From Ruminococcus sp. (lineage in GTDB: Bacteria; Bacillota; Clostridia; Oscillospirales; Ruminococcaceae): a DNA stretch of 42,193 nucleotides. Positions 1 to 34,926 of the stretch are shown in pieces. The stretch lies in the NCBI GenBank assembly GCA_017470535.1, contig JAFUYP010000031.1, positions 1 to 42,193 on the forward strand, read 5' to 3'. The notes under the pieces are model-generated. The model did not search any database. It was not told the origin of the DNA and saw only the letters and a list, made by a program, of their open reading frames with translations. How positions within the stretch are numbered: position 1 is the first letter of the stretch; every line of letters starts with the position of its first letter. The position numbers and the translations under genes were made by a program.

Positions 1-161
1 ACGACCATTGTGTGTCAGATGCGCCGTCCGGATTTTCGTCAGAATGCCCATTTTTGCCGCAGTTTTACTGACGTAAGACAAGGTAAAATTGGGTATTATG
101 ACGGAAATCCGGCAAGCAGATGGCACACAAAGGCGTGAGCCAGTGGTCGTGCGATGTTGCC
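1..161. repeat. MITE-like element, copy A (left end cut by window)
   Basis: The right end reads GGTCGTGCGATGTTGCC, the terminal inverted repeat shared by all copies in this window with one change. The interior is the reverse complement of copy H (34735-34926), for example the stretch GACAAGGTAAAATTGGGTAT. The interior is itself an imperfect long hairpin: CCGGATTTTCGTCA near position 30 pairs with TGACGGAAATCCGG near position 100. The left TIR lies outside the window. Confidence 0.85.
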
Positions 162-212
162 TATATTTATTATAACATATTTTTCCGCCAAAATCAATAG
201 TTTTATTTGCTC

Positions 213-241
213 TTGACTAAAACCGCAGATTAGTATATAAT
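213..241 (+). promoter_or_regulatory. sigma-A promoter for the cohesin-like gene
   Basis: The -35 box TTGACT (213-218) and the -10 box TATAAT (236-241) are separated by 17 bp. It lies just downstream of MITE copy A and 39 bp before the chosen start codon. This placement makes the ATG at 247 unlikely as the start, because it would sit at or before the transcription start. Confidence 0.85.
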
Positions 242-279
242 ATATTATGGAAAATTATCGGATACTATCGGAGGATACA

Positions 280-1422
280 ATGATAAAAAGGATACTGACA
301 CTGTTTTTCGCTTCCCTCCTTGTGTGCCTTGCAGCACCCGGGGCGAAAGCAGAGGATACGGCGTATTTTGCAGCTTCAAAGGATCACAGCTATCTCGGCG
401 AGGAGATAACCGTCACCCTTACCGTAAACAGCGACGCTGATGATATTTTCGATATTCAGGGCAATATCGCCTATAATGATAAGGTACTTCTCTTTGAGGA
501 GAGCGACTGTGTGACCTATGCAGGCGGCGGCAACCTGACTATACATAAATTCACCGATACAGGTGCCGAGAGCAGCTGCAATATGACCTTTAAATTCAAG
601 ACCATAGGCGACGGCGACGGGTTCATAAAACTCATGAACTGCCAGATAACCGACCAGGAGCATAATGGCATCAGAAGCCCCTCTGCCGAAACGAGCATAG
701 ATGTTTCGTCTGTACTTGTCACAACGACAGATCAGCCCGGGGATAGCGGACAGCAGACCGAAAAGACAAAAAAGACTACTAAAAAAACGACCGCCGGGCA
801 GGAAGATGCACAAGACACCGACACCGCAGAGCAGACTGATACAGAGCAGACCACAACAGAGCAGACAACGACAGAGCAGACCACCGCTGCAGCAAAGCCT
901 GCTGACGGCGAGATACCCGAGGGCAAGCTCTCATCTGTCAGGATCTCGACGGGGTATATAACGCCCGAGTTTTCCTATGACGTGCTTGAATATGATATTC
1001 TTGTACCCCACGACTGTACATGGCTCGACCTTGAAGGCACCACTTCAAGAGAAGGCGAATATATATGGTATACCGGCGATGAGAACGTCTACGACGGCGA
1101 TATAACAAGGACTATCGCTGTAAGGGACTCACAGGAAAATGAGACTGTCTATACCTTCCATATAAGGCGGATGTCCGAAAACGAGGAGCAGCAGATAGAT
1201 AAGGGACAGGCTGTTGTCACCGAAGCCCCCGAGAGCGGCAGCGGCACACATACCACCACCACAAGAAAGCTCTCTGTTGAAAAAAGTGAGCCTACCCTTA
1301 AAAAGCTCTATGTCGCAGCAGCGGCAGCTATACTTATATTTATAGTCGTGATAGTCGCAGTGCTGTCAAACAGGAGCGCCGATAAAAAACGTAAGAAGAT
1401 AAAACATACACGAACAAAGTAG
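280..1422 (+). CDS. Membrane-anchored surface protein with cohesin-like and cadherin-like domains
   Basis: This 380-residue protein starts at ATG 280, behind a CGGAGGA site at 269-275; an in-frame ATG at 247 has no ribosome site and overlaps the transcription start. Residues 1-25 form a signal peptide ending in GAKAED. Residues 30-145 resemble a cohesin fold (GEEITVTLTV near its start, then alternating beta strands and FKFKTIGDGDGFIKL). A Thr/Gln-rich linker with TTEQ repeats follows, then a cadherin-like beta-sandwich domain (about 215-300, ending YTFHIRR). A single C-terminal transmembrane helix (LYVAAAAAILIFIVVIVAVL) precedes a Lys/Arg-rich cytoplasmic tail. I infer display on the outer face of the membrane, with the cohesin-like domain possibly binding dockerins. 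Cohesin folds also occur outside cellulosomes, so partner binding is not shown. The gene appears monocistronic. Confidence 0.8.
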   Translation: MIKRILTLFFASLLVCLAAPGAKAEDTAYFAASKDHSYLGEEITVTLTVNSDADDIFDIQGNIAYNDKVLLFEESDCVTYAGGGNLTIHKFTDTGAESSCNMTFKFKTIGDGDGFIKLMNCQITDQEHNGIRSPSAETSIDVSSVLVTTTDQPGDSGQQTEKTKKTTKKTTAGQEDAQDTDTAEQTDTEQTTTEQTTTEQTTAAAKPADGEIPEGKLSSVRISTGYITPEFSYDVLEYDILVPHDCTWLDLEGTTSREGEYIWYTGDENVYDGDITRTIAVRDSQENETVYTFHIRRMSENEEQQIDKGQAVVTEAPESGSGTHTTTTRKLSVEKSEPTLKKLYVAAAAAILIFIVVIVAVLSNRSADKKRKKIKHTRTK

Positions 1423-1518
1423 TGTATATTTATCCTGTATGTCAGATTTTTAAGTTAAATCATAACTGACACCGCCAATTTTATACATAATCACTATAAA
1501 AAATAGTCAAAATTCTAC

Positions 1519-1547
1519 TTGATTTTTGGTTTGATTTATGGTAAAAT
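1519..1547 (+). promoter_or_regulatory. Probable sigma-A promoter of the cheY-cheX operon
   Basis: TTGATT (1519-1524) and TAAAAT (1542-1547) are separated by 17 bp and lie 52 bp before the CheY start codon. Confidence 0.65.
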
Positions 1548-1598
1548 TACTATAAGGCGTTCATGCGTATTTACTTTTTGTAATTGGAGGAATAAAAA

Positions 1599-1982
1599 AT
1601 GTCACTTGAAAATATTAAAGTCATGATAGCTGATGACTCGATGTTTGCGAGGAAGAAGCTGATAAATTTCATATCCACACTCGGCGTGGCAGAGGTCCTC
1701 GAGGCAGCTGACGGCGAGGAGGCTGTTGAGAAGTATAAAGCCAACAAGCCCAACGTTGTATTTATGGATATAGTCATGCCTAAGAAAACAGGTATCGAGG
1801 CTGTAAAGGAGATAGTTGAGTTTGACCCGTCTGCAAAGGTCATCATGGCGTCATCAGTCGGCACACAGAATCACCTTCGTGATGCTATAATGGCAGGTGC
1901 GGCAGACTTCATACAGAAGCCTATCTCAAATGACCAGATACAGAAGATCCTTGAAAATACGGCAAAGGAACTAAATAAATAA
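1599..1982 (+). CDS. cheY: CheY-like single-domain response regulator
   Basis: This 127-residue receiver domain has no output domain. The acidic pair is in MIADDSMFARKK (Asp12-Asp13), the phosphoacceptor Asp is in VVFMDIVMPKKTG (near residue 57), the switch Ser/Thr is in IMASSVG, and the conserved Lys is in FIQKPIS. The length and motifs are those of stand-alone CheY proteins. Translation starts at ATG 1599 behind GGAGGA. The next gene, 19 bp downstream, encodes a CheX-like domain, a family known to dephosphorylate CheY-P, so the two likely form one phosphosignalling unit. No chemotaxis kinase or receptor lies nearby, so the cognate kinase is unknown. The role could be motility or another c-di-GMP- or phosphate-linked output. 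Confidence 0.92.
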   Translation: MSLENIKVMIADDSMFARKKLINFISTLGVAEVLEAADGEEAVEKYKANKPNVVFMDIVMPKKTGIEAVKEIVEFDPSAKVIMASSVGTQNHLRDAIMAGAADFIQKPISNDQIQKILENTAKELNK

Positions 1983-2001
1983 AAAAGGACGGTAAATTTT
2001 T

Positions 2002-2886
2002 ATGTTTGCACAGTTTTTCGGCAGCTTTCTTTTACATAAAGGTCTTGTGACAGCAAAGGATCTGACACAGGCGTTCGAGGAAAAGAAGAATACAAGGATG
2101 CGTCTCGGCGTTCTTGCTATAAATGCAGGTCTTATGACATCAGAGCAGGTAGAGCACGTCAATGTCACCCAGCAAAGCGTTGATAAGCGTTTTGGTGATC
2201 TGTGCGTAGAGCTTGGCTACCTTACCGACAGCGATGTTGACAGGCTCCTTTCCGAGCAGCCTACCGATTACCTGCTTTTAGGACAGACGCTTGTGAACAG
2301 CGGTGTAATGTCAAACGCAGATTTCGAGGCAGCCATAATCGAGTATAAGAATGAGAATTCCCTCTCAAACGACGATATATCCGGCAACCAGTCAGATAAG
2401 CTCTCAAAGCTCATCTCAGGCTTCTACCACTTCGATACGGCAGCAAATGCAAGGATATATACAGAGTATACAACGCTTCTTTTCAAGGATATAATAAGAT
2501 TCATAGGTGATGACTTCACACCTCTCGGCTCTTCTATAATCCATGAGCTTGAAGCTCCGCATATAGTAAAGCAGGCGGTGACAGGTGCATATAATTCTAT
2601 CACCTGCGTGGCTGCTGATACAGCAGAGTATATGGCGTTCGCAGAGAGATTTGCAAAGGAAGAATTCACCGAGGTAGATGATTTCGTAGATGCGACGGTC
2701 GGCGAGTTTATGAATGTAAACAACGGTCTGTTCACAGTAAACGAGTCAAATGAGCATGGTATCGAGCTTCAGCTTGACCCGCAGGAGATACATACCGATG
2801 AAAAGATAGTATTTGAAAATCCTGCATTCCTTATCCCTGTATCATTCAGCTTCGGCGAAGTAAATTTTGTAATCTCAAACAGCTGA
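2002..2886 (+). CDS. CheX-like phosphatase with four N-terminal MshEN-like repeats
   Basis: This 294-residue protein has two parts. Residues 5-115 are four copies of a 24-residue motif starting at residues 5, 34, 63 and 92, each separated by exactly five residues. The best copies are RLGVLAINAGL...Q (34-57) and RFGDLCVELGY...Q (63-86), matching the published MshEN cyclic-di-GMP motif RLGxxhhxxGhhxxxxLxxxLxxQ (h, hydrophobic). Residues about 190-294 resemble CheX/CheC: VDATVGEFMNVNNGLF carries the Glu and Asn of the ExxN phosphatase signature, and NPAFLIPVSFSFGEV is the usual last strand pair. The gene is 19 bp after cheY. I infer a CheY-P phosphatase that may sense c-di-GMP. Ligand binding is untested, and the N-terminus could instead be a plain GspE-N-type adaptor fold. 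Confidence 0.8.
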   Translation: MFAQFFGSFLLHKGLVTAKDLTQAFEEKKNTRMRLGVLAINAGLMTSEQVEHVNVTQQSVDKRFGDLCVELGYLTDSDVDRLLSEQPTDYLLLGQTLVNSGVMSNADFEAAIIEYKNENSLSNDDISGNQSDKLSKLISGFYHFDTAANARIYTEYTTLLFKDIIRFIGDDFTPLGSSIIHELEAPHIVKQAVTGAYNSITCVAADTAEYMAFAERFAKEEFTEVDDFVDATVGEFMNVNNGLFTVNESNEHGIELQLDPQEIHTDEKIVFENPAFLIPVSFSFGEVNFVISNS

Positions 2887-2890
2887 TAAA

Positions 2891-2923
2891 ACGCCCCCTT
2901 GCTAAGCGTAAGGGGGTGTCTTT
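2891..2923 (+). terminator. Rho-independent terminator after cheY-cheX
   Basis: ACGCCCCCTT pairs with AAGGGGGTGT (one G-T pair) around a short loop and is followed by TTT. Confidence 0.75.
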
Positions 2924-2953
2924 ATAAAAAGATCATAAAATGGAGGTGAAAAA

Positions 2954-3112
2954 ATGGCAGTATATGCTTGCTCAGTGTGCGGCTGGGAGTATGACGAGGA
3001 TCAGGGCGCACCCGATATGGGTATAGCCCCCGGCACAAAGTTCGAGGATCTCCCCGATGATTTTGCCTGTCAGCTCTGCGGTGTCGGCAAGGATCAGTTC
3101 GAGGAAAAATAA
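2954..3112 (+). CDS. Rubredoxin
   Basis: This 52-residue protein has the complete rubredoxin pattern: an N-terminal knuckle CSVCGWEY, the conserved aromatic and acidic core (EDLPDDF), and the second knuckle CQLCG. The four Cys bind one iron atom, giving a small cytoplasmic one-electron carrier, usually for reductases that detoxify oxygen or peroxide in anaerobes. The start is ATG 2954 behind TGGAGGTG. It has its own downstream terminator (3132-3158) and no obvious redox partner next to it. The flavodoxin at 4237 is another electron carrier nearby but is not in the same operon. The family assignment is firm; the partner is unknown. Confidence 0.97.
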
Positions 3113-3131
3113 CATAGCGCAATAATATATG

Positions 3132-3158
3132 GCTGCCGCAAAAACGGCAGCTTTTTTT
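3132..3158 (+). terminator. Rho-independent terminator after rubredoxin
   Basis: GCTGCCG and CGGCAGC pair around CAAAAA and are followed by seven T. Confidence 0.9.
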
Positions 3159-3162
3159 CAAG

Positions 3163-3334
3163 GGCAACACCGCACGACCCCTGTGCATCAGATGCGCCGT
3201 CCGGATTTTCGTCAGATTGCCTAAATTCGACGCAGGCTTGCTGCCGCAAGTCAAGGAGAATTTGGGTAATATGACGGAAAGCTGGCAAGCAGATGATGTG
3301 CAGAGGCGTTAGCCGCGGGTCGTGCGGTGTTGCC
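3163..3334. repeat. MITE-like element, copy B (172 bp, full length)
   Basis: It starts GGCAACACCGCACGACC and ends with the reverse complement GGTCGTGCGGTGTTGCC. CAAG lies directly outside both ends (3159-3162 and 3335-3338), like a target duplication. It has the same length as copy F (21994-22165) and differs from it at only four positions by eye. ORFs inside are not conserved as proteins. Confidence 0.93.
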
Positions 3335-3348
3335 CAAGGCAATAGCAC

Positions 3349-3377
3349 TTGAAATATCTGTTAAAAAATGCTATAAT
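3349..3377 (+). promoter_or_regulatory. sigma-A promoter for the SpoU methyltransferase gene
   Basis: TTGAAA (3349-3354) and TATAAT (3372-3377) are separated by 17 bp, beginning 15 bp after the end of MITE copy B. Confidence 0.85.
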
Positions 3378-3401
3378 GTTGATGATGTTAGGAGGAGAGC
3401 C

Positions 3402-4220
3402 ATGAAAAACATTATCAGCATAACAGACTTATCATTAAAAGACCTTGAGCCGTACCGTATCACCAACGAGGTGCAGCTTTTAAGATATTTCGAGCCGCAG
3501 GAGGGGCTGTTCATAGCCGAAAGCCCGAAGGTCATAAGACGTGCCCTTGAAGCAGGGTATGAGCCGGTGTCGCTGCTTTTGTCACAAAAGCTGCTTGACA
3601 GCAAGGCAGGTGATATTATCAAAGCTCTTGGCGAAAGACCTGTCTATACCGCTCCTGATGATGTGCTGACCTCACTTACAGGCTTTAAGCTGACACAGGG
3701 CGCATTGTGCGCTATGAGAAGAAAAAAACTCCCCTCTGCTGCGGACATTGCAAAAAACGCCCGTCGCATAGCCGTCCTTGAAGATATATGTAACCAGACG
3801 AACGTGGGCGCTATTTTCAGAAGTGCGGCAGCGCTCGGTATAGATGCAGTGCTTCTCACCCCGGGGTGCAGCGACCCACTTTACAGAAGATCGGTAAGAG
3901 TGAGCATGGGTACTGTTTTCCAGATACCGTGGGCATATCTTGACAGCAGCAGCCCCGACTATGTAGACTCTCTGCACAAAATGGGCTTTAAGACCGCTGC
4001 TATGGCACTCAGACATAACACTATCGACATTGCAGACAAGCGCTTAAAGGACGAACAGCACCTTGCGGTCATCCTCGGCACCGAGGGCGAGGGGCTTAAA
4101 GAGCAGACGATAGACAAAAGCGACTACACGATAAAGATACCCATGTCACACGGAGTTGACTCACTAAATGTTGCAGCCGCAAGCGCCGTGGCATTCTTTG
4201 CCCTTTGCGGCGATCAATAA
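3402..4220 (+). CDS. SpoU/TrmH-family RNA 2'-O-ribose methyltransferase
   Basis: This 272-residue protein has the three signature motifs of SPOUT class TrmH enzymes: NVGAIFRSAAALG (motif 1), AVILGTEGEGL (motif 2) and IPMSHGVDSLNVAAASAV (motif 3, part of the trefoil knot that binds S-adenosylmethionine). The first 110 residues are the usual substrate-binding region (LLRYFEPQEGLFIAESPKVI). The start is ATG 3402 behind GGAGGA; the longer reading from 3327 would begin inside MITE copy B and before the promoter. It probably methylates a ribose in 23S rRNA or tRNA; the exact target cannot be read from the sequence. The flavodoxin gene follows after 16 bp and the GH127 gene after that, so the three are probably cotranscribed. 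Confidence 0.93.
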   Translation: MKNIISITDLSLKDLEPYRITNEVQLLRYFEPQEGLFIAESPKVIRRALEAGYEPVSLLLSQKLLDSKAGDIIKALGERPVYTAPDDVLTSLTGFKLTQGALCAMRRKKLPSAADIAKNARRIAVLEDICNQTNVGAIFRSAAALGIDAVLLTPGCSDPLYRRSVRVSMGTVFQIPWAYLDSSSPDYVDSLHKMGFKTAAMALRHNTIDIADKRLKDEQHLAVILGTEGEGLKEQTIDKSDYTIKIPMSHGVDSLNVAAASAVAFFALCGDQ

Positions 4221-4236
4221 GAAAGGATCTGATATT

Positions 4237-4716
4237 ATGAGCAAAACACTTGTAGCATACTTTTCGGTGGAGGGCACTACTGCAAATGCAGCTAAAAAGC
4301 TCGCAGAATTCGCAGCTGCGGATATTTTCGAGATAGTGCCGCAGCAGCCCTATACTATGAGCGACATCAACTGGAAAAACCCCCTCGCACGCTGCAATAA
4401 GGAAAAGATAGGCAAAAAGGACGTGCCTGTAAACGGCAGTATCGAGAATTTCGATGAGTACAGGACGGTATTTGTAGGCTTCCCGATCTGGTACTATGGT
4501 GCGCCGAACGTCATCAATACCTTTATGAAGGGCTACGACTGGTCGGGCAAGAGGATAGCGCTGTTTGCGACCTCCGGCGGCAGCGATATAGGCAAGACTG
4601 TCGCAAAGCTGCGCCCCTATGTTCAGGGCGATGCAAGGATAATAGGCGCTAAGATATTCAACGGCACGTATATTGACACCGCACTCAAAGCATACGCAGA
4701 CGAGATAATAAAATAG
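4237..4716 (+). CDS. Flavodoxin
   Basis: This 159-residue FMN-binding electron carrier begins MSKTLVAYFSVEGTTANAAKKLA, where SVEGTTANAA is the phosphate-binding loop. VFVGFPIWYYGAPNVINTF is the second flavin loop with the stacking aromatic residues, and FATSGGSDIG is the third. The fold is of the flavodoxin-like NAD(P)H-independent type common in gut Firmicutes. The start is ATG 4237 behind GAAAGGA; the longer frame from 4168 reads through the end of the previous gene. The stop at 4714-4716 forms part of the ribosome site of the GH127 gene. Confidence 0.92.
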   Translation: MSKTLVAYFSVEGTTANAAKKLAEFAAADIFEIVPQQPYTMSDINWKNPLARCNKEKIGKKDVPVNGSIENFDEYRTVFVGFPIWYYGAPNVINTFMKGYDWSGKRIALFATSGGSDIGKTVAKLRPYVQGDARIIGAKIFNGTYIDTALKAYADEIIK

Positions 4717-4725
4717 GAGCAGTAT

Positions 4726-6627
4726 ATGAAAGTACAGTCACAGCTTAAAACTCACAGCTATACACCGGAAGGCTTTATCGGCGACTACTGTAAGCTCGTC
4801 ACACAAACCGTTATCCCCTACCAGTACAGCGTGCTGAAGGACGAAGCGCCCGATACCGAAAAAAGCCACGTCTATCAGAATTTTCTGAATGCCGCAGATG
4901 TCCTTGCAGGCGGCGGAGGCGGCGACGGCTTTTACGGCATGGTCTTTCAGGACTCCGACGCTGCAAAATGGATAGAAGCCGCAGCATTCTCGCTTGCAAA
5001 TACCCCCGACCCTGCACTTGAAAAAACGGTCGATGATTTTATCGACATCATAGCCAGGGCGCAGGATACCGACGGCTACCTTGATACCTGCTTTACTATC
5101 AAGGATAAGGACAGACGCTACACTAACCTTTTGGAAGCGCACGAGCTTTACTGCTCGGGGCATTTTATGGAGGCGGCGTGTGCATACTTTGAAGCCACCG
5201 GCAAGAGAAAGCTGCTTGATGTGATGCTCAAAAATGCAGAGCATCTCTATGACAGATTCATCACAAATGGCGCTCCCGGCTATCCCGGTCACCCGGAGAT
5301 AGAGCTTGCACTGTTAAAGCTCTACCGCACCACAAAGAATGATAAATGCTTGCAGCTCGCAAGGCATTTTATTGATACCCGTGGTACAGACCCGGCGTTT
5401 TACAGCAAGGAAGCCGAAAAGCGTGACTGGTCGGTGTGGAACAGCGACCCGTGGGATAACGCCTACCGCCAGGCAGATAAGCCTGCAAGAAGGCTCACCG
5501 ATGCGACAGGTCACGCAGTAAGGGCAGTGTATCTGTATACGGCAATGGCAGACCTTGCATCAAGTGATAACGACAGCGAGCTTTATGATGCCTGCAAGCG
5601 CCTGTGGCAAAGTATAACAAAGCGCCGTATGTACGTCACCGGCGGTATCGGCTCGACAGTACACGGAGAAGCATTTTCCGTGGACTTTGACCTGCCGTCA
5701 GATACGGCATACGCTGAGACCTGTGCGAGCTGCGGTCTTATGTTCTTTGCGTCCCGTATGCTTGAAAACGAGGTAAACGGCGAGTACGCCGATGTTATGG
5801 AGAGGGCATTCTATAACACCGTGCTTGCAGGTATGCAGCTTGACGGCAAGAGATTTTTCTATGTAAATCCGCTTGAAGTAAATATCGGTATTTCAGGTAT
5901 CTCCCCGACCCACAGACATGACCTGCCCGTCCGCCCGAAATGGTACGCCTGCGCCTGCTGTCCGCCCAATGTCGCCAGAACGATAGAGTCGTTCGGCAAG
6001 TACGCCTACGGCGAGAGCAGCGACACTGCGTACTGTCATCTTTTCGCCGCCGGCAAGGTCAGCTTTGAAAACGGCATATCGCTTGAATGTAAAACAGGCT
6101 ACCCCTACGAGCTTGATGTTAAGTACCATGTTTCCGGCAGCGGCAGGCTTGCGGTCAGGCTCCCCGGCTGGAGCCATAGCACCACTGTCAGAGTAAACGG
6201 AGACCCCACCCATGTTATCAGCGAAAAAGGCTATATGTACTTTGATATAGACGGCAGCAGCGAGATAGAGCTTTGCTTTGACAAGGATATAAAGAGGATA
6301 TACTCAAACCCCGTCATACCGGCACTTACAGGAAAGGTATGCCTTATGAGAGGACCTTTGGTCTACTGCTTTGAGGGCAAAGACAACGGCGGCAGTGTCG
6401 CAGACATCAGCCTTACAGACGGCGATGCAGTCACAGCACTTGACGATTCTCTCCCGGGTGTAACAGTCATCGACGTGCAGGCTGTAAGAGCAAGCTATGA
6501 CGGCGACAGCCTTTACAGCGACAAAGCCCCCGAATACACACCCATTACCGCAAGAGCCGTTCCCTATTACACATGGGGCAACAGGGGCGAGAACCAGATG
6601 CGTGTGTGGACAGATCACTTAGCATAA
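4726..6627 (+). CDS. GH127 beta-L-arabinofuranosidase (DUF1680 family)
   Basis: This 633-residue protein has the usual length for GH127. Zinc and catalytic residues known from Bifidobacterium HypBA1 (Glu338, Cys340, Cys417, Cys418) are matched by Glu331 and Cys333 in YAETCASCG and Cys411-Cys412 in WYACACCPPN. Other family marks are YVTGGIGSTVHGEAF and DTDGYLDT in the alpha/alpha barrel, with C-terminal beta-sandwich domains (CLMRGPLVYC). There is no signal peptide, so it acts inside the cell, removing L-arabinofuranose from imported plant oligosaccharides. It is the last gene of a run with the RNA methyltransferase and flavodoxin, an unusual context with no sugar transporter or regulator nearby. 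The start is ATG 4726 behind TAGGAGC. Confidence 0.94.
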   Translation: MKVQSQLKTHSYTPEGFIGDYCKLVTQTVIPYQYSVLKDEAPDTEKSHVYQNFLNAADVLAGGGGGDGFYGMVFQDSDAAKWIEAAAFSLANTPDPALEKTVDDFIDIIARAQDTDGYLDTCFTIKDKDRRYTNLLEAHELYCSGHFMEAACAYFEATGKRKLLDVMLKNAEHLYDRFITNGAPGYPGHPEIELALLKLYRTTKNDKCLQLARHFIDTRGTDPAFYSKEAEKRDWSVWNSDPWDNAYRQADKPARRLTDATGHAVRAVYLYTAMADLASSDNDSELYDACKRLWQSITKRRMYVTGGIGSTVHGEAFSVDFDLPSDTAYAETCASCGLMFFASRMLENEVNGEYADVMERAFYNTVLAGMQLDGKRFFYVNPLEVNIGISGISPTHRHDLPVRPKWYACACCPPNVARTIESFGKYAYGESSDTAYCHLFAAGKVSFENGISLECKTGYPYELDVKYHVSGSGRLAVRLPGWSHSTTVRVNGDPTHVISEKGYMYFDIDGSSEIELCFDKDIKRIYSNPVIPALTGKVCLMRGPLVYCFEGKDNGGSVADISLTDGDAVTALDDSLPGVTVIDVQAVRASYDGDSLYSDKAPEYTPITARAVPYYTWGNRGENQMRVWTDHLA

Positions 6628-6666
6628 AAAAACAGAGGTATCGCAATGTCGGTACCTCTGTTTTCT
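6626..6666. terminator. Bidirectional terminator between convergent genes
   Basis: AAAACAGAGGTA pairs with TACCTCTGTTTT around a 12-nt loop. It has A residues on the left and T residues on the right, so it can serve GH127 (plus strand) and the TldE-like gene (minus strand). Confidence 0.88.
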
Positions 6667-6669
6667 TTA

Positions 6670-7884: not shown

Positions 7885-7896
7885 TTTGCCGCCTCC

Positions 7897-9234: not shown

Positions 9235-9271
9235 GGTCTTTACCGTCCTTCCTTATTTATAGTGTGCTTTA

Positions 9272-9925: not shown

Positions 9926-9931
9926 TTATTA

Positions 9932-10599: not shown

Positions 10600-10652
10600 A
10601 GCAACACCGCACGACCACCGGTTCTGACACACAATGGTCGTGCGGTGTTGCC
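10600..10652. repeat. MITE-like element, copy C (short form, 53 bp)
   Basis: It is both termini of the family (AGCAACACCGCACGACC and its inverted partner) joined with most of the interior missing. The inner part ACACACAATGGTCG matches copy H. TTAA flanks both sides (10596-10599 and 10653-10656). It lies in the leader of the C39-like gene. Confidence 0.9.
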
Positions 10653-13246: not shown

Positions 13247-13292
13247 GGCAACACCACACAACCACCGAACAAAGCCTTTGTGCGTCGTTGCT
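13247..13292. repeat. MITE-like element, copy D (short, diverged)
   Basis: GGCAACACCACACAACCACC at the left and a matching inverted end near 13292 are a diverged form of the family termini. TTAAA flanks both sides (13242-13246 and 13293-13297). It lies entirely in the predicted 5' leader of the SLOG gene. Confidence 0.75.
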
Positions 13293-15474: not shown

Positions 15475-15507
15475 GGCGATACCGCACAGATATTATGCGG
15501 TGTTGCC
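15475..15507. repeat. MITE-like element, copy E (shortest form, 33 bp)
   Basis: GGCGATACCGCACAGA and ATGCGGTGTTGCC are the two family ends with almost nothing between them. ATTATTCA is present directly on both sides (15467-15474 and 15508-15515). The stop codon of the EAL gene lies inside the right-hand repeat. Confidence 0.75.
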
Positions 15508-18256: not shown

Positions 18257-19081
18257 TTATCCTTTCAGATACTCTTTGCCGCAGATATACCAGCCGTCGT
18301 CGAGCTGCTTGAATATCACCGGGAACTCGTCCATGAACGACTTCTCACATTCAGGCTGAACGTACACAAGGTAGTATATCATATAGCTGTTCTTGCCGGA
18401 CTTCCTGGCAGTTACAGGCATATAGACGATAGCGTCACCGTTATCATCATAGTATGCACCTATCCTGTCGAGAACTGTCGGGCGCAGTGCCTTTTTAGTA
18501 CGCTTCAAAAATTTCTTCCTTGACTTTTTAAGTGCTTTTCTGGTCTTTTTGAGTGCCTTGTCGTTTGAATACTCGGTGCTGCACTCTGCCTCGCCGGGGC
18601 AGCCGACGATGTCGATATTTACCTCGCCGTCGCCGTTTACATATGCGCTGTATGCGTTCTCCACATAAAGGTCGTTGAAAAGCTCGCCTGCACGGACTAA
18701 CTTCTTGCCGTGGTGCTTATAGACGTTCTTGACCATTTTCTTAGGTGATGACTTACGGATATGGCGAAGTGTCAGCAGCAGTGTAAGACCGGCTGCGCCT
18801 GCTATTATCTTGCCCTTATGTCTGCACCAGATGTCCTTAGCGCCCTCTTTGACAGCCCTGGGGTCAATATCCTCTCTTGAGGGTATCCTTGCCCTTATCT
18901 CGCCGGGGATACGCACGATAGCTTCTCTGTCGGGGAGCTTTGCTATAAGCGCCTCTTTATCAGGAAGTTTTGCAAGTATCACCTGCTTATCGGGCAGCTT
19001 TGCAAGTATCACCTCTTTATCAGGGAGTTTTGCAAGCAGTGCCTCCCTGTCAGGGAGCTTTGACAGAATATCAACTTTCAT
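18257..19081 (-). CDS. Unrecognised protein with five 10-residue LPDKE repeats
   Basis: This 274-residue protein is not of a family I recognise. Residues 6-55 are five tandem decamers of the form LAKLPDKEVI, with only Lys/Arg, Glu/Gln and Val/Ala/Ile changes, which would make a regular amphipathic structure. A partial sixth unit and RIPGEIRARIPSREDID follow. A hydrophobic stretch (GKIIAGAAGLTLLLTL, about 92-107) may be a membrane segment. The middle is very basic (KKTRKALKKSRKKFLKRTKKALR). The C-terminal 70 residues form a compact-looking domain (AIVYMPVTARKSG to DDGWYICGKEYLKG). It follows a membrane-protein gene by 17 bp and probably shares its promoter at 19690-19718. The start is ATG 19081 behind GGAGGAAT. 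Confidence 0.85.
   Translation of the reverse strand: MKVDILSKLPDREALLAKLPDKEVILAKLPDKQVILAKLPDKEALIAKLPDREAIVRIPGEIRARIPSREDIDPRAVKEGAKDIWCRHKGKIIAGAAGLTLLLTLRHIRKSSPKKMVKNVYKHHGKKLVRAGELFNDLYVENAYSAYVNGDGEVNIDIVGCPGEAECSTEYSNDKALKKTRKALKKSRKKFLKRTKKALRPTVLDRIGAYYDDNGDAIVYMPVTARKSGKNSYMIYYLVYVQPECEKSFMDEFPVIFKQLDDGWYICGKEYLKG
18917..19066 (-). repeat. Tandem 30-bp coding repeats (five copies)
   Basis: Five 30-bp units encode the LAKLPDKEVI-type decamers. The copies are near-identical at the DNA level (GCAAGTATCACCT is shared on the plus strand), pointing to recent slippage or recombination. Confidence 0.85.
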
Positions 19082-21229: not shown

Positions 21230-21994
21230 ATGAAACGCTTGATGTTACTGATATTGACAGCAGTGATGCTATGCTCATGCAGCAGCAAGAGCAGCAGCTC
21301 ACAGACGGAATATTTCTCAAATGAGCGTGCGATAGAGTCATCATCAGACGGTGCTGACAGCAAATCTGCTAAGGAAGAAAGCTCATCGCAGCAGGAGAAA
21401 AAGGTATGGAAAGTATTTGACGAGGTATATCCGACGCTTGATGATAACAGCCGCTCATACAAAAACTATGAGATAAACCGCACTGTCTGGGACGAGAGCG
21501 GCTTACAGGGGCAGCTTATAGAGTCAGGGCAGGACACCGCACCGCAGAATGAGCTGTGTCTTGGGAATTACCATTTCGGGTACAACGGCTGCGAGGTGAT
21601 AGCAGGGTACAATATGCTCACTCTTTGCGGCATTGATGCTGATATGCCGAAGCTGATAACAGAGTTTGAACAGAACATCTTAGTAGCGCAGGACGGCTCG
21701 CTCGGCTCTGACCCGAGGAAAATGGATATGCTGCTCGACCGCTACGGGATAGAGTACACAAAGCTATCGACACTCTATGAATGTGACAAAGCACTTGAAA
21801 GCGGCAGCGACATCATATTTGCATTTTACACAGGCACGCCGTATTTCAGTGAGATACACACTATCTGCATCACCGGCGGAGAGGACAAGTATGTACTCAA
21901 CCGCTACAACACTATCGACGGCAGAAGTCAGATAGAAAGCATAAGTGACATAGTTGACGATGAAAAGCAGATGATAACAGGCTACGCTGTTTAG
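21230..21994 (+). CDS. Lipoprotein with papain-like (C39-type) domain
   Basis: This 254-residue protein begins with a lipoprotein signal (MKRLMLLILTAVMLCSC; lipobox around LCSC), then a Ser-rich linker. The domain from about residue 115 contains a candidate catalytic Cys in YNGCEVIAGYN, His in IHTICITGG and Asn in YVLNRYN. It shares these and further motifs (EFEQN, DPRKM, ITGY) with the cytoplasmic protein at 9932-10576, making them paralogues on opposite sides of the membrane. It is coexpressed with the DUF3810 protein. The TAG stop (21992-21994) uses the first G of MITE copy F as its last base. Confidence 0.85.
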   Translation: MKRLMLLILTAVMLCSCSSKSSSSQTEYFSNERAIESSSDGADSKSAKEESSSQQEKKVWKVFDEVYPTLDDNSRSYKNYEINRTVWDESGLQGQLIESGQDTAPQNELCLGNYHFGYNGCEVIAGYNMLTLCGIDADMPKLITEFEQNILVAQDGSLGSDPRKMDMLLDRYGIEYTKLSTLYECDKALESGSDIIFAFYTGTPYFSEIHTICITGGEDKYVLNRYNTIDGRSQIESISDIVDDEKQMITGYAV

Positions 21995-22165
21995 GCAACA
22001 CCGCACGACCCCTGTGCATCAGATGCGCCGTCCAGATTTTCGTAAGATTGCCTAAATTCGACGCAGGCTTGCTGACGCAAGTCAAGGAGAATTTGGGTAA
22101 TATGACGGAAAGCTGGCAAGCAGATGATGTGCAGAGGCGTTAGCCGTGGGTCGTGCGGTGTTGCC
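21994..22165. repeat. MITE-like element, copy F (172 bp, full length)
   Basis: It begins GGCAACACCGCACGACC and ends with the perfect inverted partner. TTA flanks both sides (21991-21993 and 22166-22168). It is almost identical to copy B in the same orientation. It sits exactly between the stop codon of the lipoprotein gene and the tsaE leader. Confidence 0.93.
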
Positions 22166-24043: not shown

Positions 24044-24045
24044 GT

Positions 24046-25379: not shown

Positions 25380-25391
25380 GGAGGCATTCTT

Positions 25392-25618: not shown

Positions 25619-25630
25619 GGGTTATATACA

Positions 25631-25664
25631 AAAGCTCCCACGGACATAAATCCGTGGGAGCTTT
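25631..25664. terminator. Bidirectional terminator between dockerin remnant and ABC operon
   Basis: AAAGCTCCCACGGA pairs perfectly with TCCGTGGGAGCTTT around CATAAA; a T-rich run also follows at 25669-25676. Confidence 0.9.
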
Positions 25665-25680
25665 GATCGTTTTTTTAAGA

Positions 25681-29803: not shown

Positions 29804-29823
29804 GATCTCCCTCCTTTTTGAAA

Positions 29824-29843
29824 ATAGTTAGGTATCGAACTAT
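29824..29843. promoter_or_regulatory. MarR operator-like site 1
   Basis: ATAGTTAGGTATCGAACTAT is an inverted repeat placed just downstream of the -10 box of the marR promoter, where bound repressor would block transcription. Confidence 0.8.
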
Positions 29844-29847
29844 ATTT

Positions 29848-29876
29848 ATTATACCGCATCACATCAGAAAGGTCAA
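29848..29876 (-). promoter_or_regulatory. marR-ABC operon promoter
   Basis: On the minus strand TTGACC (29876-29871) and TATAAT (29853-29848) are 17 bp apart. Confidence 0.82.
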
Positions 29877-29892
29877 TATCATTAATCACAAA

Positions 29893-29914
29893 AATAGTTA
29901 GGTGTCTAATTATT
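29893..29914. promoter_or_regulatory. MarR operator-like site 2
   Basis: A second near-palindrome with the same core (AATAGTTAGGTGTCTAATTA) lies upstream of the -35 box. Its copy of TAGTTAGGT is exactly 70 bp from that of site 1, about seven helical turns. Confidence 0.75.
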
Positions 29915-29951
29915 TTTTGTGCAATTTTAAGAAGAGTCGTATCATCTCTAC

Positions 29952-29980
29952 TTGACAAAGGTGCATTATTATTATAAAAT
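29952..29980 (+). promoter_or_regulatory. Promoter of the purine salvage operon
   Basis: TTGACA (29952-29957) and TAAAAT (29975-29980) are 17 bp apart. It is divergent from the marR promoter. Confidence 0.75.
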
Positions 29981-30016
29981 ATAAGTATACATTATATTGT
30001 AACGGAGGTATTTATC

Positions 30017-30862
30017 ATGGGGATATATGAAAAGCTCACACGCTGTCTTGAAAGTGTAAGAGCAAAGACCGACTTTGTTCCGCAGATAGCTCTTGTGCTC
30101 GGGTCGGGGCTTGGCAGCTTTGCTGAGCGCATCAACAAGGCGGCTGAGATAGATTACAAGGATATTGACGGCTTCCCGACATCGACTGTCGAGGGGCACG
30201 CAGGCAGGCTGGTATTCGGCACGCTCGGCGGTGTGAAGCTCGTCTGTATGCAGGGCAGAGTACATTACTATGAGGGGTACGGCATTGAAGATGTCGTTCT
30301 TCCCGCAAGGCTCATGGCGCTGCTGGGGGCTAAGGTGTTATTTCTGACAAATGCGTCGGGCGGTCTTGGCAAGGGCTTCCGGGCAGGCGACTTTATGCTT
30401 ATAAGGGATCACATATCCTGCTTTGTGCCAAATCCTCTGATAGGAAAGAATGTTGACGAGCTGGGGACACGTTTCCCGGACATGAGCGAGGTCTACGACA
30501 AGGAGCTTTGCGGCATAATAAGGGAGAGTGCAAAGGACTGCGGTATAGATCTCAAGGAGGGCGTTTACTGTCAGCTGACAGGTCCGTCGTTTGAAACGCC
30601 TGCGGAGATAAATATGCTTGCACGCTTAGGCGTTGATGCTGTGGGTATGTCAACAGTAGTCGAAGCGATAGCTGCAAGGCACGCCGGAATGAGAGTATGC
30701 GCAGTTTCCTGCGTATGCAATCTTGCAGCAGGCATCTCCCCCACTCCGCTTACCCATGATGAGGTACAGGAGGCAGGAAGACAGGCAGCACCGAAATTCA
30801 AAGCACTCATCACAGAATCGGTAGAGGGCATATCCGATCATCTGTCAACGGTAAGGCTATGA
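30017..30862 (+). CDS. punA: Purine nucleoside phosphorylase
   Basis: This 281-residue protein matches the trimeric PNP family: ALVLGSGLGSFAERI (phosphate loop), VEGHAGRLVFG, MQGRVHYYEGY and LTNASGGLGKGF (the Ser/Asn-rich base region), and the purine-site DAVGMSTVVEAIAARHAGM. It splits purine nucleosides with phosphate into base and ribose 1-phosphate. The start is ATG 30017 behind GGAGGT. The next gene, 52 bp downstream, is a nucleoside deaminase, so together they form a purine salvage unit: deamination of adenosine-type nucleosides followed by phosphorolysis. Confidence 0.95.
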   Translation: MGIYEKLTRCLESVRAKTDFVPQIALVLGSGLGSFAERINKAAEIDYKDIDGFPTSTVEGHAGRLVFGTLGGVKLVCMQGRVHYYEGYGIEDVVLPARLMALLGAKVLFLTNASGGLGKGFRAGDFMLIRDHISCFVPNPLIGKNVDELGTRFPDMSEVYDKELCGIIRESAKDCGIDLKEGVYCQLTGPSFETPAEINMLARLGVDAVGMSTVVEAIAARHAGMRVCAVSCVCNLAAGISPTPLTHDEVQEAGRQAAPKFKALITESVEGISDHLSTVRL

Positions 30863-30914
30863 TGACGTATACAGACAAAAAGATCTCAAATGAGATAATG
30901 AAAGGAAATTTGAT

Positions 30915-32207
30915 ATGATAAGATTTAAGAATGCAAGGATAATGACGCTCGCAGGTGATGATCCGTTTAAGATCACAGAGGGCGAGGTATGGACTGACGG
31001 AGACAAGATAGCATTTATAGGCGTCCCCACAAAGGAGCAGCTTGAAAGCACGAAATTCGAGCGTGAGATATGTGTTATGAAAAATCTGCTGATGCCGTCG
31101 TTTAAAAACGCTCACACACACTCGGCGATGACCTTCCTGCGCTCATATGCAGATGATCTGCCGCTGCAAAAATGGTTGTTTGAAAAGGTATTCCCGCTTG
31201 AAGCAAAGCTCACGGGAGAGGACGTTTACTATTTTACGAAGGTCGCAAATCTTGAATACCTGACAAGCGGCATCACGGCGAGCTTTGATATGTATTTTGA
31301 GCTTGATGACTATGTAAAGGCCTGCACGGAAATGGGCTTTCGCAGTGTGATGTGCGGCTCTGTTTCGGGAGAAGCAGGCAGGATAAAGGAAGTGGAGGAG
31401 AACTTCTTAAAGTACAACGAGGTAAGTCCGCTCATCGGGTACAGGTTAGGGTTCCATGCTGAATACACCTGCGACGAAAAGCTGCTTGAAGCTATGGGCA
31501 GGCTCGCCGAAAAATACAAAGCCCCCGTATACACTCACAACAGCGAGACTGAAAGCGAGGTAGAGGGCTGCATAAACAAATACGGCAAGACCCCGACAGC
31601 GCTGTTTGACAGCTTAGGGATATACAACTTTGGCGGCGGCGGCTTCCACTGCGTTCACATGACAGAGGAGGATCTTGACATATTCAAAAAGAGGGGCGCA
31701 TACATAGTTACTAACCCCGGCTCAAACTCAAAGCTCGCAAGCGGTATCGCAGACATCAGGGCGATGAAGGACAAGGGCATAGGGCTTGCTATCGGAACAG
31801 ACGGACCTGCAAGCAACAATGCGCTCGATATGTTCAGGGAGATGTATCTGATGACGGTGCTTGGCAAGCTGAGAGAAAAGGACGCTGCTGCGTGTGATGC
31901 GTATGATGTGCTTTATGCTGCGACTGTCGGCAGTGCGAAGGCTATGGGGCTTGATGACTGCGACACATTAGAGGTCGGCAAGCAGGCGGACATCATTATG
32001 ATAGATCTTAAACAGCCCAATATGCAGCCGATGAACAACATACCGAAGAACATAGTTTACAGCGGCAGCAAATCAAATGTTGCGCTTACCATGTGTGCAG
32101 GCAAAGTGCTTTATGAAAACGGCAAATTTACAGACTTTGACACAGACGAGATATATAAGGGCGCTCAGGAACGTGCTGTCCGCATCCAGAATGAGGTGAA
32201 AAACTGA
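30915..32207 (+). CDS. Amidohydrolase, MTA/SAH/5'-deoxyadenosine deaminase type
   Basis: This 430-residue protein is a metal-dependent amidohydrolase. Metal ligands are in NAHTHSAMTFLR (HxH), the His of GGGFHCVHMTEEDL, and the Asp of AIGTDGPASNNALDMF; the catalytic HNSET Glu region (VYTHNSETESEV) also fits. The pattern is that of 5'-methylthioadenosine/S-adenosylhomocysteine or 5'-deoxyadenosine deaminases, common in Firmicutes. It removes the 6-amino group of adenosine-like nucleosides that arise from S-adenosylmethionine chemistry, and the neighbouring phosphorylase could use the product. Exact substrate preference cannot be read. The stop overlaps a possible CTG start of the next gene. Confidence 0.92.
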   Translation: MIRFKNARIMTLAGDDPFKITEGEVWTDGDKIAFIGVPTKEQLESTKFEREICVMKNLLMPSFKNAHTHSAMTFLRSYADDLPLQKWLFEKVFPLEAKLTGEDVYYFTKVANLEYLTSGITASFDMYFELDDYVKACTEMGFRSVMCGSVSGEAGRIKEVEENFLKYNEVSPLIGYRLGFHAEYTCDEKLLEAMGRLAEKYKAPVYTHNSETESEVEGCINKYGKTPTALFDSLGIYNFGGGGFHCVHMTEEDLDIFKKRGAYIVTNPGSNSKLASGIADIRAMKDKGIGLAIGTDGPASNNALDMFREMYLMTVLGKLREKDAAACDAYDVLYAATVGSAKAMGLDDCDTLEVGKQADIIMIDLKQPNMQPMNNIPKNIVYSGSKSNVALTMCAGKVLYENGKFTDFDTDEIYKGAQERAVRIQNEVKN

Positions 32208-32599
32208 CCCTCACAGGGAATGAGAAAAAATATGCAGCGGCGCTTATCACAGCATTCATTTTAGCGGTATCGCTCATGGTGACGCTAAGTATATGGCTTT
32301 ACGGGAAGCTGTTAGGCTCGGGGCTGCTGCTTGAGGGAACGTGGAAAAGCACGGACAGTGAAATAAAAACAGACGGTAAAACGGCGGAGATCTTCAGCGG
32401 CGGTGCTGCGGAGTCCGCCGTTTTGAATATACTGTCATATGAAGATGATATGCTGTCGGGCGGAAGAGTGGTCTATCACTGCGAATTATGCTTTGAACAC
32501 AGAGTACAGAGCGTCACTATCATATACGAGAACCACAGCGGCGTCAGGCTCATGGAAGTAGTAATTGACGGAAAGAGTGAAATATTCCTTTTTGAATAA
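32204..32599 (+). CDS. Small membrane-anchored protein, probable CTG start
   Basis: No ATG is well placed: the first in frame, 32276, has no ribosome site and would cut the membrane helix. CTG at 32204 overlaps the deaminase stop as CTGA and has GAGGTG five bases upstream, giving 131 residues with a charged N-terminus (TLTGNEKKYAA) and a full transmembrane helix (ALITAFILAVSLMVTLSIWLYG). The rest is a small beta-rich extracellular domain (LEGTWKSTDSEIKTDGK, EVVIDGKSEIFLFE) resembling small lipocalin-like folds. I do not recognise the family. If the CTG is used, the gene is translationally coupled to purine salvage. No terminator is obvious downstream. Confidence 0.65.
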   Translation: MTLTGNEKKYAAALITAFILAVSLMVTLSIWLYGKLLGSGLLLEGTWKSTDSEIKTDGKTAEIFSGGAAESAVLNILSYEDDMLSGGRVVYHCELCFEHRVQSVTIIYENHSGVRLMEVVIDGKSEIFLFE

Positions 32600-32694
32600 T
32601 TCGTTAAGGTCGTATAATAATCACCATAATACGCCGGTTTTTTACGCCTGCTTAGTGCAAATTTCTGATTTTTTGCAGGATTTAAAAAAATAAC

Positions 32695-32723
32695 TTGCAA
32701 AAACGGCGTGAAAAGTATAAAAT
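32695..32723 (+). promoter_or_regulatory. Probable promoter of the aminotransferase gene
   Basis: TTGCAA (32695-32700) and TAAAAT (32718-32723) are 17 bp apart, 55 bp before the start codon. Confidence 0.6.
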
Positions 32724-32778
32724 AATATAGGTAAAGAATTATTATAAGATATTATAAGTATATGGTGGAGGAAACAAC

Positions 32779-34059
32779 ATGGAAATGAAAGATATGTCAA
32801 AGGAGCAGTTAAGTGAGCTGCTCTCAGCTGCTAAGAAGGAATATGACGGCTACAAGGCTTTAGGTCTTGCGCTCAACATGGCAAGGGGCAAGCCTGCGGC
32901 AGATCAGCTCGATCTTACAAAGGATATGCTCGATGCTGTAAGCTCATCGACTGACTGCAAGGCGCTCGACGGCACTGACTGCCGCAACTACGGTGTGCTT
33001 GACGGTATTAAAGATACAAAGAAGATATTCTGCGATATGCTGGGTGTGGCTGAGGACGAGCTGATAGTCGGCGGAAACTCATCACTCAACCTTATGTATG
33101 ACACTATCGCAAGGAACTTTATGTTCGGCGTAAGCAAGGAGGCAACTCCCTGGAAGGACGCAGGCAAGGTAAAGTGGCTGTGCCCTGTACCGGGATATGA
33201 CAGGCACTTTGCTATAACCGAGAGATTCGGCTTTGAGCTTATAAACATTCCGATGAACGCTGACGGTCCTGACATGGACATGGTGGAAAAGTTAGTAAAC
33301 GAGGACAGCAGTGTAAAGGGTATCTGGTGCGTACCTATGTATTCAAACCCGACGGGCATAACCTTCTCTGACGAGGTGGTAAAGCGCTTTGCGGCTCTGA
33401 AGCCCGCTGCAAAGGATTTCAGGATATTCTGGGACAACGCTTACTGCGTACATCATCTGACAGACACGCCCGACACGCTTTTAAACATTCTTGATGAATG
33501 CAAAAAGAACGGCAATGAGGACATGGTATACATCTTCGCATCGACATCTAAGGTATCGTATGCAGGTGCAGGTGTGGCTGTAATGGCTGCAAGCAAGAAC
33601 AACATCGACTATGTAAAGTATCACATGACAGTACAGACGATAGGCTTTGACAAGATAAACCAGTTAAGGCACGCAAGGTACTTCAAGGACTTCGACGGCA
33701 TAAAGGCTCACATGAAAAAGCACGCAGCTATCATCGCTCCCAAGTTTGACGCTGTTATCAAGGCGCTTGATGAGAACATCAGACCTTTGGGCATTGGCAG
33801 CTACAACACTCCGAGAGGCGGTTACTTCATAAGCTTTGATACACTTCCCGGGTGTGCTAAAAAGGTAGTGTCATTATGCAAGGACGCAGGCGTTATCATG
33901 ACCGGTGCAGGAGCTACCTTCCCATACGGCAAGGACCCTCAGGACAGCAACATAAGGATAGCCCCTACCCTGCCGCCGATCGACGAGCTGGAGCAGGCTA
34001 TGAAGGTGTTCATTTGCAGCGTGAAGATAGCAAGTGCTGAAAAATTACTTGCGGAGTAA
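32779..34059 (+). CDS. Aspartate-type aminotransferase (class I fold, PF12897-like)
   Basis: This 426-residue pyridoxal-phosphate enzyme has NMARGKPAADQLDL near the N-terminus, MYSNPTGITF (Asn190), FWDNAYCVHHL (Asp219, Tyr222) and the cofactor lysine Lys258 in FASTSKVSYAGAG. The longer N-terminal region and DCRNYGVLDG are typical of the aspartate aminotransferases of the PF12897 group rather than classical AspC. It likely interconverts aspartate and oxaloacetate in the cytoplasm. The start is ATG 32779 behind GGTGGAGGAA. It has its own promoter and terminator. Confidence 0.93.
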   Translation: MEMKDMSKEQLSELLSAAKKEYDGYKALGLALNMARGKPAADQLDLTKDMLDAVSSSTDCKALDGTDCRNYGVLDGIKDTKKIFCDMLGVAEDELIVGGNSSLNLMYDTIARNFMFGVSKEATPWKDAGKVKWLCPVPGYDRHFAITERFGFELINIPMNADGPDMDMVEKLVNEDSSVKGIWCVPMYSNPTGITFSDEVVKRFAALKPAAKDFRIFWDNAYCVHHLTDTPDTLLNILDECKKNGNEDMVYIFASTSKVSYAGAGVAVMAASKNNIDYVKYHMTVQTIGFDKINQLRHARYFKDFDGIKAHMKKHAAIIAPKFDAVIKALDENIRPLGIGSYNTPRGGYFISFDTLPGCAKKVVSLCKDAGVIMTGAGATFPYGKDPQDSNIRIAPTLPPIDELEQAMKVFICSVKIASAEKLLAE

Positions 34060-34081
34060 AAGGATATTTATATAAAAGCTA

Positions 34082-34112
34082 AGCGCAGGGCAAAAGCTCT
34101 GCGCTGTTTTTG
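34082..34112 (+). terminator. Terminator after the aminotransferase gene
   Basis: AGCGCAG and CTGCGCT pair, extended by GC/GC around AAAA, and are followed by GTTTTTG. Confidence 0.85.
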
Positions 34113-34117
34113 TTATA

Positions 34118-34164
34118 GGCAACACTGCCGGGCCATTGTATGCCGGTGGTCCGACGGTGTTGCC
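34118..34164. repeat. MITE-like element, copy G (short form)
   Basis: GGCAACACTGCCGGGCC and its inverted partner form a 47-bp element. TATA flanks both sides (34114-34117 and 34165-34168). The stop codon of def uses the terminal base of the element. Confidence 0.82.
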
Positions 34165-34574
34165 TATATTATGATGCCTTTCAGGTGGTCGCATTCGTGC
34201 TGTATCGCCTGGGCGGTGATGCCGGTGAAGGTACGGCGCTCTGTCTTGAAATCCTCGTTTTGGTATTTTACCTCTATCTCATTATAGCGTATCGTCCCTC
34301 GTGAGCCTAAAAGGGACAGGCAGCTCTCCTGCGTTTCATACTTGCCCGAGCGTCTTTTTATCTCGGGGTTTATCATGACGAGCTGACCGTCCCCGGTATC
34401 GACGATGATCACCTGCTTTAATGCGCCTATCATATTGGCGGCAAGACCTATACATTCATCGCTGTGAGCAGTGAGAGTGTCTTTAAGGTCGGTGATGAGT
34501 GCTGAATCATTTTTATTTGCAAGTGTGCTTTTACGGCTCAAAAACTGAATATCCTTTACAATGTTTCTTTTCAT
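34164..34574 (-). CDS. def: Peptide deformylase
   Basis: This 136-residue metalloenzyme removes the formyl group from new proteins. The three motifs are present: GLAANMIG (motif I, with Ile in place of the usual Gln), ESCLSLLG (motif II, zinc Cys, with Ser for Gly) and QHECDHLKGI (motif III, HExxH-type zinc site). The short length and the ending HLKGIII are usual for the second deformylase class of Firmicutes, so it is not truncated. The motif I change removes a residue that stabilises the transition state, so activity may be low or specialised. The TAG stop is built partly from MITE copy G. The start is at 34574. Confidence 0.9.
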   Translation of the reverse strand: MKRNIVKDIQFLSRKSTLANKNDSALITDLKDTLTAHSDECIGLAANMIGALKQVIIVDTGDGQLVMINPEIKRRSGKYETQESCLSLLGSRGTIRYNEIEVKYQNEDFKTERRTFTGITAQAIQHECDHLKGIII

Positions 34575-34609
34575 AGTGACCTCCGGGAATACAGAATTAT
34601 TATAATACT

Positions 34610-34638
34610 ATTATACCACTTATCCCGGAAAGTTTCAA
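34610..34638 (-). promoter_or_regulatory. sigma-A promoter of def
   Basis: On the minus strand TTGAAA (34638-34633) and TATAAT (34615-34610) are 17 bp apart. Confidence 0.78.
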
Positions 34639-34697
34639 GTAGGTCGGGAAATATGGCAGGTACGAAGTGTAGTTTACATAAAAAAATATGATATTAC

Positions 34698-34726
34698 TTG
34701 ACGCATGGCTGCATATGTGGTATAAT
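34698..34726 (+). promoter_or_regulatory. sigma-A promoter of the lipoprotein gene; MITE H follows at once
   Basis: TTGACG (34698-34703) and TATAAT (34721-34726) are 17 bp apart. The expected transcription start is at about 34733, so transcripts begin almost exactly at the MITE left end (34735). Confidence 0.8.
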
Positions 34727-34734
34727 TTAGCAAG

Positions 34735-34926
34735 AGCAACACCGCACGACCACCGGCTCACGCCTTTGTGTGCCATCTGCTTGCCGAATTTCCGTCATAA
34801 TACCCAATTTTACCTTGTTTTACGCCAGTAAAACTGCGGCAAAAATGGGCATTCTGACGAAAATTCGGCGTGTTCAGCAAAGCTGAACAACTGCATACTG
34901 ACACACAATGGTCGTGCGGTGTTGCC
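34735..34926. repeat. MITE-like element, copy H (192 bp)
   Basis: Termini AGCAACACCGCACGACC and GGTCGTGCGGTGTTGCC enclose an interior that is the reverse complement of copy A. It also carries an extra small hairpin (GTTCAGCAAAGCTGAAC). CAAG flanks both sides (34731-34734 and 34927-34930). It fills nearly the whole 5' leader of the lipoprotein gene. Confidence 0.92.

Follow-up and report, generated by a model that had tools for sequence, protein, structure and literature searches.

Short inverted-repeat elements of Ruminococcus with IS5-type ends and a conserved hairpin core

A contig of 42,193 bp from Ruminococcus sp. (contig JAFUYP010000031.1 of GenBank assembly GCA_017470535.1, analysed whole and referred to here as the window) carries eight short inverted-repeat elements, four long and four short. 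The locus raises the question of what these repeats are, by what they are moved and why their interior is kept. They are probably non-autonomous miniature inverted-repeat transposable elements (MITEs) that IS5-family transposases of the NF033581 kind mobilise in trans, and their core is probably selected for its fold. The element is a MITE of known kind; its novelty lies in a strand-specific hairpin core that is deeply conserved and is combined with IS5-type ends of more than one sort.

Abundance, pairing and positions of the elements

The window, contig C80, belongs to a 2.1-Mb assembly of 86 contigs that is 76% complete. The genus was sampled with this genome and six congeners, four of the seven genomes being less than 90% complete. 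The 17-mer GGCAACACCGCACGACC, in which the first-pass annotation saw a terminal repeat common to all copies, matched the window 11 times at up to three mismatches (shuffle mean 0.05) and the 2.1-Mb genome 147 times at up to two mismatches, against none for the reversed control. The 147 end matches imply at least about 74 sites, or one per 29 kb or denser. The density of one per 5 kb first reported thus holds for the window with remnants counted, whereas at least about one per 29 kb is found genome-wide. All seven genus genomes matched the 17-mer at up to one mismatch; among 34 other genomes a single one did so, with one match.

The ends co-occur as pairs. In stretches from two genomes, G000 (47) and the near-complete congener G005 (70), 117 paired sites were found, a few of them alternative pairings of the same end. 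Lengths of 172 bp (63 sites) and 191–193 bp (20 sites) dominated, next to short forms of 30–85 bp; these lengths are too short for a transposase, and none is encoded, as had been noted. An exact 4-bp target repeat was present at 83 of the 117 sites (26.5 expected with reshuffled flanks), most often TTAA (n = 43). With R1, a covariance model of the element, and with second-strand matches of the same site included, 139 matches were obtained in G000, at least 150 in G005, 40 in G138 and 18 in G153. At least 111 distinct full-length sites were present in G005.

Near-identical copies sit in many different flanks. The junction occupied in the window by the copy at 21994-22165 was empty in all five comparable congeners, in which the orthologue and the adjacent tsaE-like gene (80–85% identity) are separated by a gap that is shorter than the element and contains no element end; the sixth congener has no orthologue. 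Insertion polymorphism between relatives was seen at this one comparable site, the junction 32779-35624 not being comparable because neither downstream gene matched in the loci of four relatives that were read. Unpaired ends elsewhere, or copies at identical positions in distant species, had been named beforehand as signs against mobile elements, and both checks favoured the MITE-like reading. The elements are short and multicopy, lack a transposase gene and are bounded by terminal inverted repeats and target duplications. Many contigs of the window genome end inside or right beside an element, and the window contig itself begins inside one.

These positions bear on a possible host-domesticated regulatory RNA, the copies of which would be retained for what they do to adjacent genes, as reported for Correia and ERIC. 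Copies are indeed mostly intergenic and some separate genes that seem to form one operon (as at window position 21994), and PMC10969869 describes RNase III and RNase E effects of inserted Correia and ERIC elements. Among 176 elements, none lay within an unbroken called gene and nine marked possible interrupted genes, with a home-made gene caller that mostly scores a gene-breaking insertion as lying between two genes. Elements are oriented evenly with respect to the genes beside them (47 forward, 42 reverse), two tests found no dependence of orientation on gene direction, the sole comparable site is empty in five of five congeners, and the flanks of near-identical copies vary widely. Domestication is considered improbable.

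IS5-family insertion sequences with similar ends

A full-length insertion sequence (IS) with the same ends had been proposed as a possible mover. Related gut Clostridia do contain such elements, the ends being a close match, and none was found in the genus. Searching viral contigs with a 15-bp end pattern gave mostly chance matches, but yielded the first full IS, L150, which is 1136 bp long and has similar ends and an IS5-family transposase (NCBIfam model NF033581, E 7.6e-96). A genome scan then returned 80 related IS5 loci, mainly from gut and rumen Clostridia, 49 of which were examined, most duplicates and fragments being left out. Ends of the GGCAAYACCGCAC type flanked the transposase on both sides in 41 of the 49 (up to three mismatches per end), with identical 4-bp flanks, read by eye, at 22 of these 41 loci. 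The transposases of L150, L243 and L495 scored 307–323 bits against NF033581, for which the cut-off is 140.

One end of L243, from Ruminococcus sp., reads GGCAACACCGCACAACC, and the same 17-mer stands at an end of 26 of the 176 elements; one end of L245 reads GGCAACACCGCACAAAG, found likewise in 57 of the 176. Ends are in this way common to the elements and to autonomous elements of other genomes (L243, L245 and L150). The L243 transposase matched 14 of 148 genomes of the bacterial family, probably Ruminococcaceae as GTDB defines it, some of them weakly, and is intact in G130 and G161. In G130 the intact IS5 transposase and the elements occur in the same genome, and G093 holds elements together with a decayed 660-bp IS5 transposase flanked by TTAA.

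Other candidates were discarded. Transposases with the PF01609 domain were found only four times in the genus, all in G005; they are 459 aa long and have no element ends within five mismatches. These four copies (L041-L044) form two tandem pairs. The ends of locus L101 are loosely paired and no transposase-like open reading frame (ORF) was seen there by eye. The element at 3163-3334 (element B) had no match in the plasmid collection, and no paired exact ends were present in the viral contigs.

The elements might simply have arisen from an IS5-family element by internal deletion, and the ends do align with those of eight IS copies over up to 17–20 bases. Beyond the ends, matches to these eight copies were scattered and short (E 0.067 or more), and the interior of the element is conserved across families, which makes simple deletion a very remote explanation. 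We read the element as a hairpin satellite, with ends linked to IS5, an interior lacking convincing IS similarity and a single-stranded fold under selection. IS5-family transposases of the NF033581 kind would recognise GGCAAYACCGCACAA ends and close variants and insert the element at TTAA-like 4-bp sites, mostly intergenic. This mobilisation in trans would be due to transposases that have since been lost from the genus or reside there only at intervals.

The hairpin core and its strand

The body of the 172-nt element is one hairpin. For element B the folding energy is −107.9 kcal/mol (z −11.4) on the better strand and −78.2 kcal/mol (z −6.3) on the opposite one. No Rfam 15 family reached its gathering score in the window, the best match in 301 bases around element B having an E-value of 0.049 and 18.9 bits, with 50 needed. 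The first-pass annotation was right about the kind of element, but missed this interior hairpin, which is conserved, strand-specific and class-wide and is found with ends of more than one kind.

Twenty-four representatives (alignment A1) aligned without gaps, which is partly by choice, since A1 and the 108-copy set below were limited to copies of exactly 172 nt. Double changes that keep pairing were found at 34 of 69 pairs, and 96.1% of cells pair. The covariation score was 0.351, against 0.163 for shuffled alignments (0/500) and at most 0.095 when the pairing was slid. In a class-wide set of 36 sequences, double changes were kept at 52 of 59 pairs, pairs inside the ends included.

The fold is also bound to one strand, with orientation assigned by alignment or profile score and independent of folding. 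In G000 and G005 the better-folding strand is the same in 97 of 98 long copies, and the forward strand folds better in all of 108 aligned 172-nt copies (from 14 genomes and five phage or virus records). Within these 108 copies G.T pairs were counted 789 times and A.C pairs 69 times. Private changes in single copies gave 31 to G.T against 13 to A.C, and 20 against 5 under another setting; a third setting gave 17 against 8, which is not significant. By parsimony on the 36 class-wide sequences, 71 changes led from Watson-Crick pairs to G.T and 11 to A.C. Columns 47-115 retain a U.G pair in 99 of the 108 copies and in 34 of the 36 class-wide sequences.

Double changes in both arms, as observed, would equally arise if the palindrome were kept up as a by-product of template switching between its arms, the folded strand itself being under no selection. 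Such upkeep is strand-symmetric and for that reason fails on the asymmetry between G.T and A.C, both in the pair counts and in the private changes of the first two settings, and it gives no retained U.G pair either; we regard it as slightly less probable than the regulatory RNA. These comparisons of aligned copies give good support for selection acting on a folded single strand.

The core extends well beyond the genus, to no fewer than five families of Clostridia. Its first distant relatives were met in four human faecal phage records, 70–74% identical. Of the 148 family genomes, R1 matched 31 with a threshold of E 0.001 and 23 at E <1e-12, and in a class-wide draw 26 of 391 genomes, 17 of them at E <1e-12, from five families. 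The counts at E <1e-12 exclude the weak matches L372, L375-L377 and L482-L484, which by eye are other hairpins and were kept out of alignment A2 and of the following set. Among 38 further copies from family and class genomes, 37 measure 169–174 nt and one 127 nt; the inner motifs are retained in most of them, least in L373, and the forward strand folds better in all 38.

These copies also carry alternative ends, namely GGAARCACTGATTAA, GTAAGCGCTGATTAAATA and, in one copy, GGTCGCATCTAAAAACC. A second IS5-family IS, L495 (1263 bp), has GGAARCACTGATTAA ends with TTAG on both sides, and its transposase is 43% identical to that of L243. For the GTAA end type, the only further one searched, no paired copy was found in three viral contigs. 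An element of 172 nt is identical between the faecal phage record MT835572.1 (unverified) and G153 (L045, 4001-4172; L353, 1501-1672), the 30-bp flanks not being identical throughout; the elements may ride on phage-like contigs, or MT835572.1 may be host DNA. The exchange of ends suggests a broader interpretation, tentative and a good deal less probable than the one preferred here, of a class-wide satellite with the folded core as heritable unit and ends exchanged according to the IS5 transposase at hand. Transmission would then need the folded single strand, as RNA or as DNA at the replication fork, and the core would be active in mobility.

Several results weigh against the interpretation as MITEs moved in trans by IS5 transposases of the NF033581 kind. 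The window 17-mer agrees with the best IS end, of L243, at 16 of 17 positions and with the other L243 end at 15 (14 and 13 for the ends of L245). The IS5 transposase of the L150 type had no match in any of the seven genus genomes, four of which are less than 90% complete, so the elements may not be mobile in the genus at present. Another transposase family may be the mover, the genus having been searched for PF01609 and the L150 protein only. Among the 148 family genomes, elements occur in 31, the transposase in 14, several of these matches being weak, and both in seven, where about three are expected by chance. The even gene orientation (47/42) disfavours a role in co-transcribed mRNA. Finally, the forward strand is also favoured with DNA energy parameters, in 108 of 108 copies (means −51 and −40 kcal/mol), and folding therefore does not distinguish RNA from single-stranded DNA.

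Folded strands act in integron cassettes and in IS200/IS605 and REP elements. Here too single-stranded DNA rather than RNA could be the folded form, with copies mobilised from, or filtered by, replication forks. The DNA folding energies and the even orientation to genes agree with this, as does the replication bias in G005. Among the 111 sites listed there, 75 run counter to replication if the contig start is taken as origin (p 0.0003), and with the best origin, at 3.15 Mb, the number rises to 82; in 300 shuffles, for which coarser steps were used, it reached at most 76. The origin is only roughly placed, from skew in partial stretches. In G138 one strand carries 21 of the 27 sites, without a clear switch at the change of skew, and G153 offers only 13 sites. 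The lagging-strand template carries the weaker-folding strand, which is opposite to a simple excision model, and 4-bp target repeats with IS5-type ends indicate a DDE transposase of the double-strand kind. The near-invariant U.G wobble fits RNA better and RNA is favoured because that pair is retained. A DNA form is considered unlikely, less so than domestication.

On the preferred interpretation, the core of these MITEs would be kept because one strand must fold. We consider RNA the likelier form, as a long, mostly double-stranded rod that may be tolerated or processed when a copy is co-transcribed.

The window copies and comparison with known systems

All eight places reported for the family in the first-pass annotation were confirmed. 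R1 gave 13 matches in the window that collapse to eight sites, seven of which scored at E 0.003 or better, the eighth (13247-13292) being weak at E 0.49. The long copies, all at E 1.3e-28 or better, lie at 1-161, 3163-3334 and 21994-22165 on the forward strand and at 34735-34926 on the reverse strand. The ends are truly shared but less uniform than claimed: the exact 17-mer is present at both ends in 3163-3334 and 21994-22165 only, and five of 16 possible ends lack it even at three mismatches (left of 1-161, where the contig start cuts it; right of 13247-13292; both of 15475-15507; left of 34118-34164). Short direct repeats stand beside seven of the eight elements, the left side of 1-161 being off the contig.

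The two interior subfamilies proposed earlier are real. Element A (1-161, +) has lost its first 11 bases at the contig start (R1 positions 12-172, E 4.6e-33) and is an inverted match to element H (34735-34926, −), with 95% likeness over 133 bases. Element H measures 192 bp, is flanked by CAAG and scores E 1.3e-28 on the reverse against 4e-8 on the forward strand. The 192-nt form is the 172-nt form with an extra 20-nt mini-hairpin, and both sizes recur in G000 and G005. Elements B (3163-3334, +; flanks CAAG) and F (21994-22165, +; flanking repeat only TTA) are 172 bp long, have exact 17-bp terminal inverted repeats and are 98% alike over 172 bases. A terminator-like hairpin (3131-3152) immediately precedes element B. 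Element F separates the end of ORF 21230-21994 from the tsaE-like gene, and its first base, G, completes the TAG stop of the upstream gene (21992-21994). If the insert and one copy of the target were removed, the flanks would read TAA, so that the stop of this gene is retained.

The short forms probably resulted from deletion within the palindrome. At 10600-10652 lies an H-like, internally deleted form of 53 bp (flanks TTAA; R1 E 6.2e-7), the last 29 bases of which are identical to the end of H, while the first 25 match at 96%. The decayed remnant of 46 bp at 13247-13292 was assigned because of its left end (two mismatches) and the flanking TTAAA repeat, given its weak R1 score. A palindromic remnant of 33 bp occupies 15475-15507 (flanks ATTATTCA; E 0.003) and another remnant of 47 bp occupies 34118-34164 (flanks TATA; right end with three mismatches; E 2.2e-4). 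Elsewhere in the window, 30-nt-spaced repeats occur at 18930-19079 within ORF 18257-19081, and 15-nt coding repeats of AGCAGAC units at 822-881 within ORF 247-1422.

The prokaryotic MITEs moved by related IS that are treated in PMC10969869 are likewise short, non-coding and intergenic, with terminal inverted repeats, target repeats and a stable predicted RNA hairpin. In the present family, by contrast, the core is conserved class-wide with covariation, a strand bias and different ends, and no partner was found in the genus. With IS5-family elements of the NF033581 kind it has in common ends matching at 13–17 bases and TTAA-like 4-bp target repeats; unlike them, it has no gene and no convincing interior similarity. 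The repeats bcr1-bcr3 of the Bacillus cereus group are also MITE-like, high-copy and often located in untranslated regions or intergenic parts of operons, according to PMC3446304, and ERIC and Correia are described in PMC10969869 as MITE-type repeats reported to alter mRNA processing. The bcr, ERIC and Correia repeats belong to other host groups, and the likeness drawn here is one of description. No earlier description of the element was found among the titles and abstract openings listed, which is not proof of its absence from print.

Bacterial MITEs are commonly viewed as leftovers of insertion sequences. In this family the length of a non-coding core and its pairing on one strand are preserved throughout a class, with ends that vary. 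The location of elements at many contig ends bears on the assembly of such genomes. If the interpretation is true, the family would lend itself well to studying whether the spread of a non-autonomous element depends on a folded strand of RNA or DNA.

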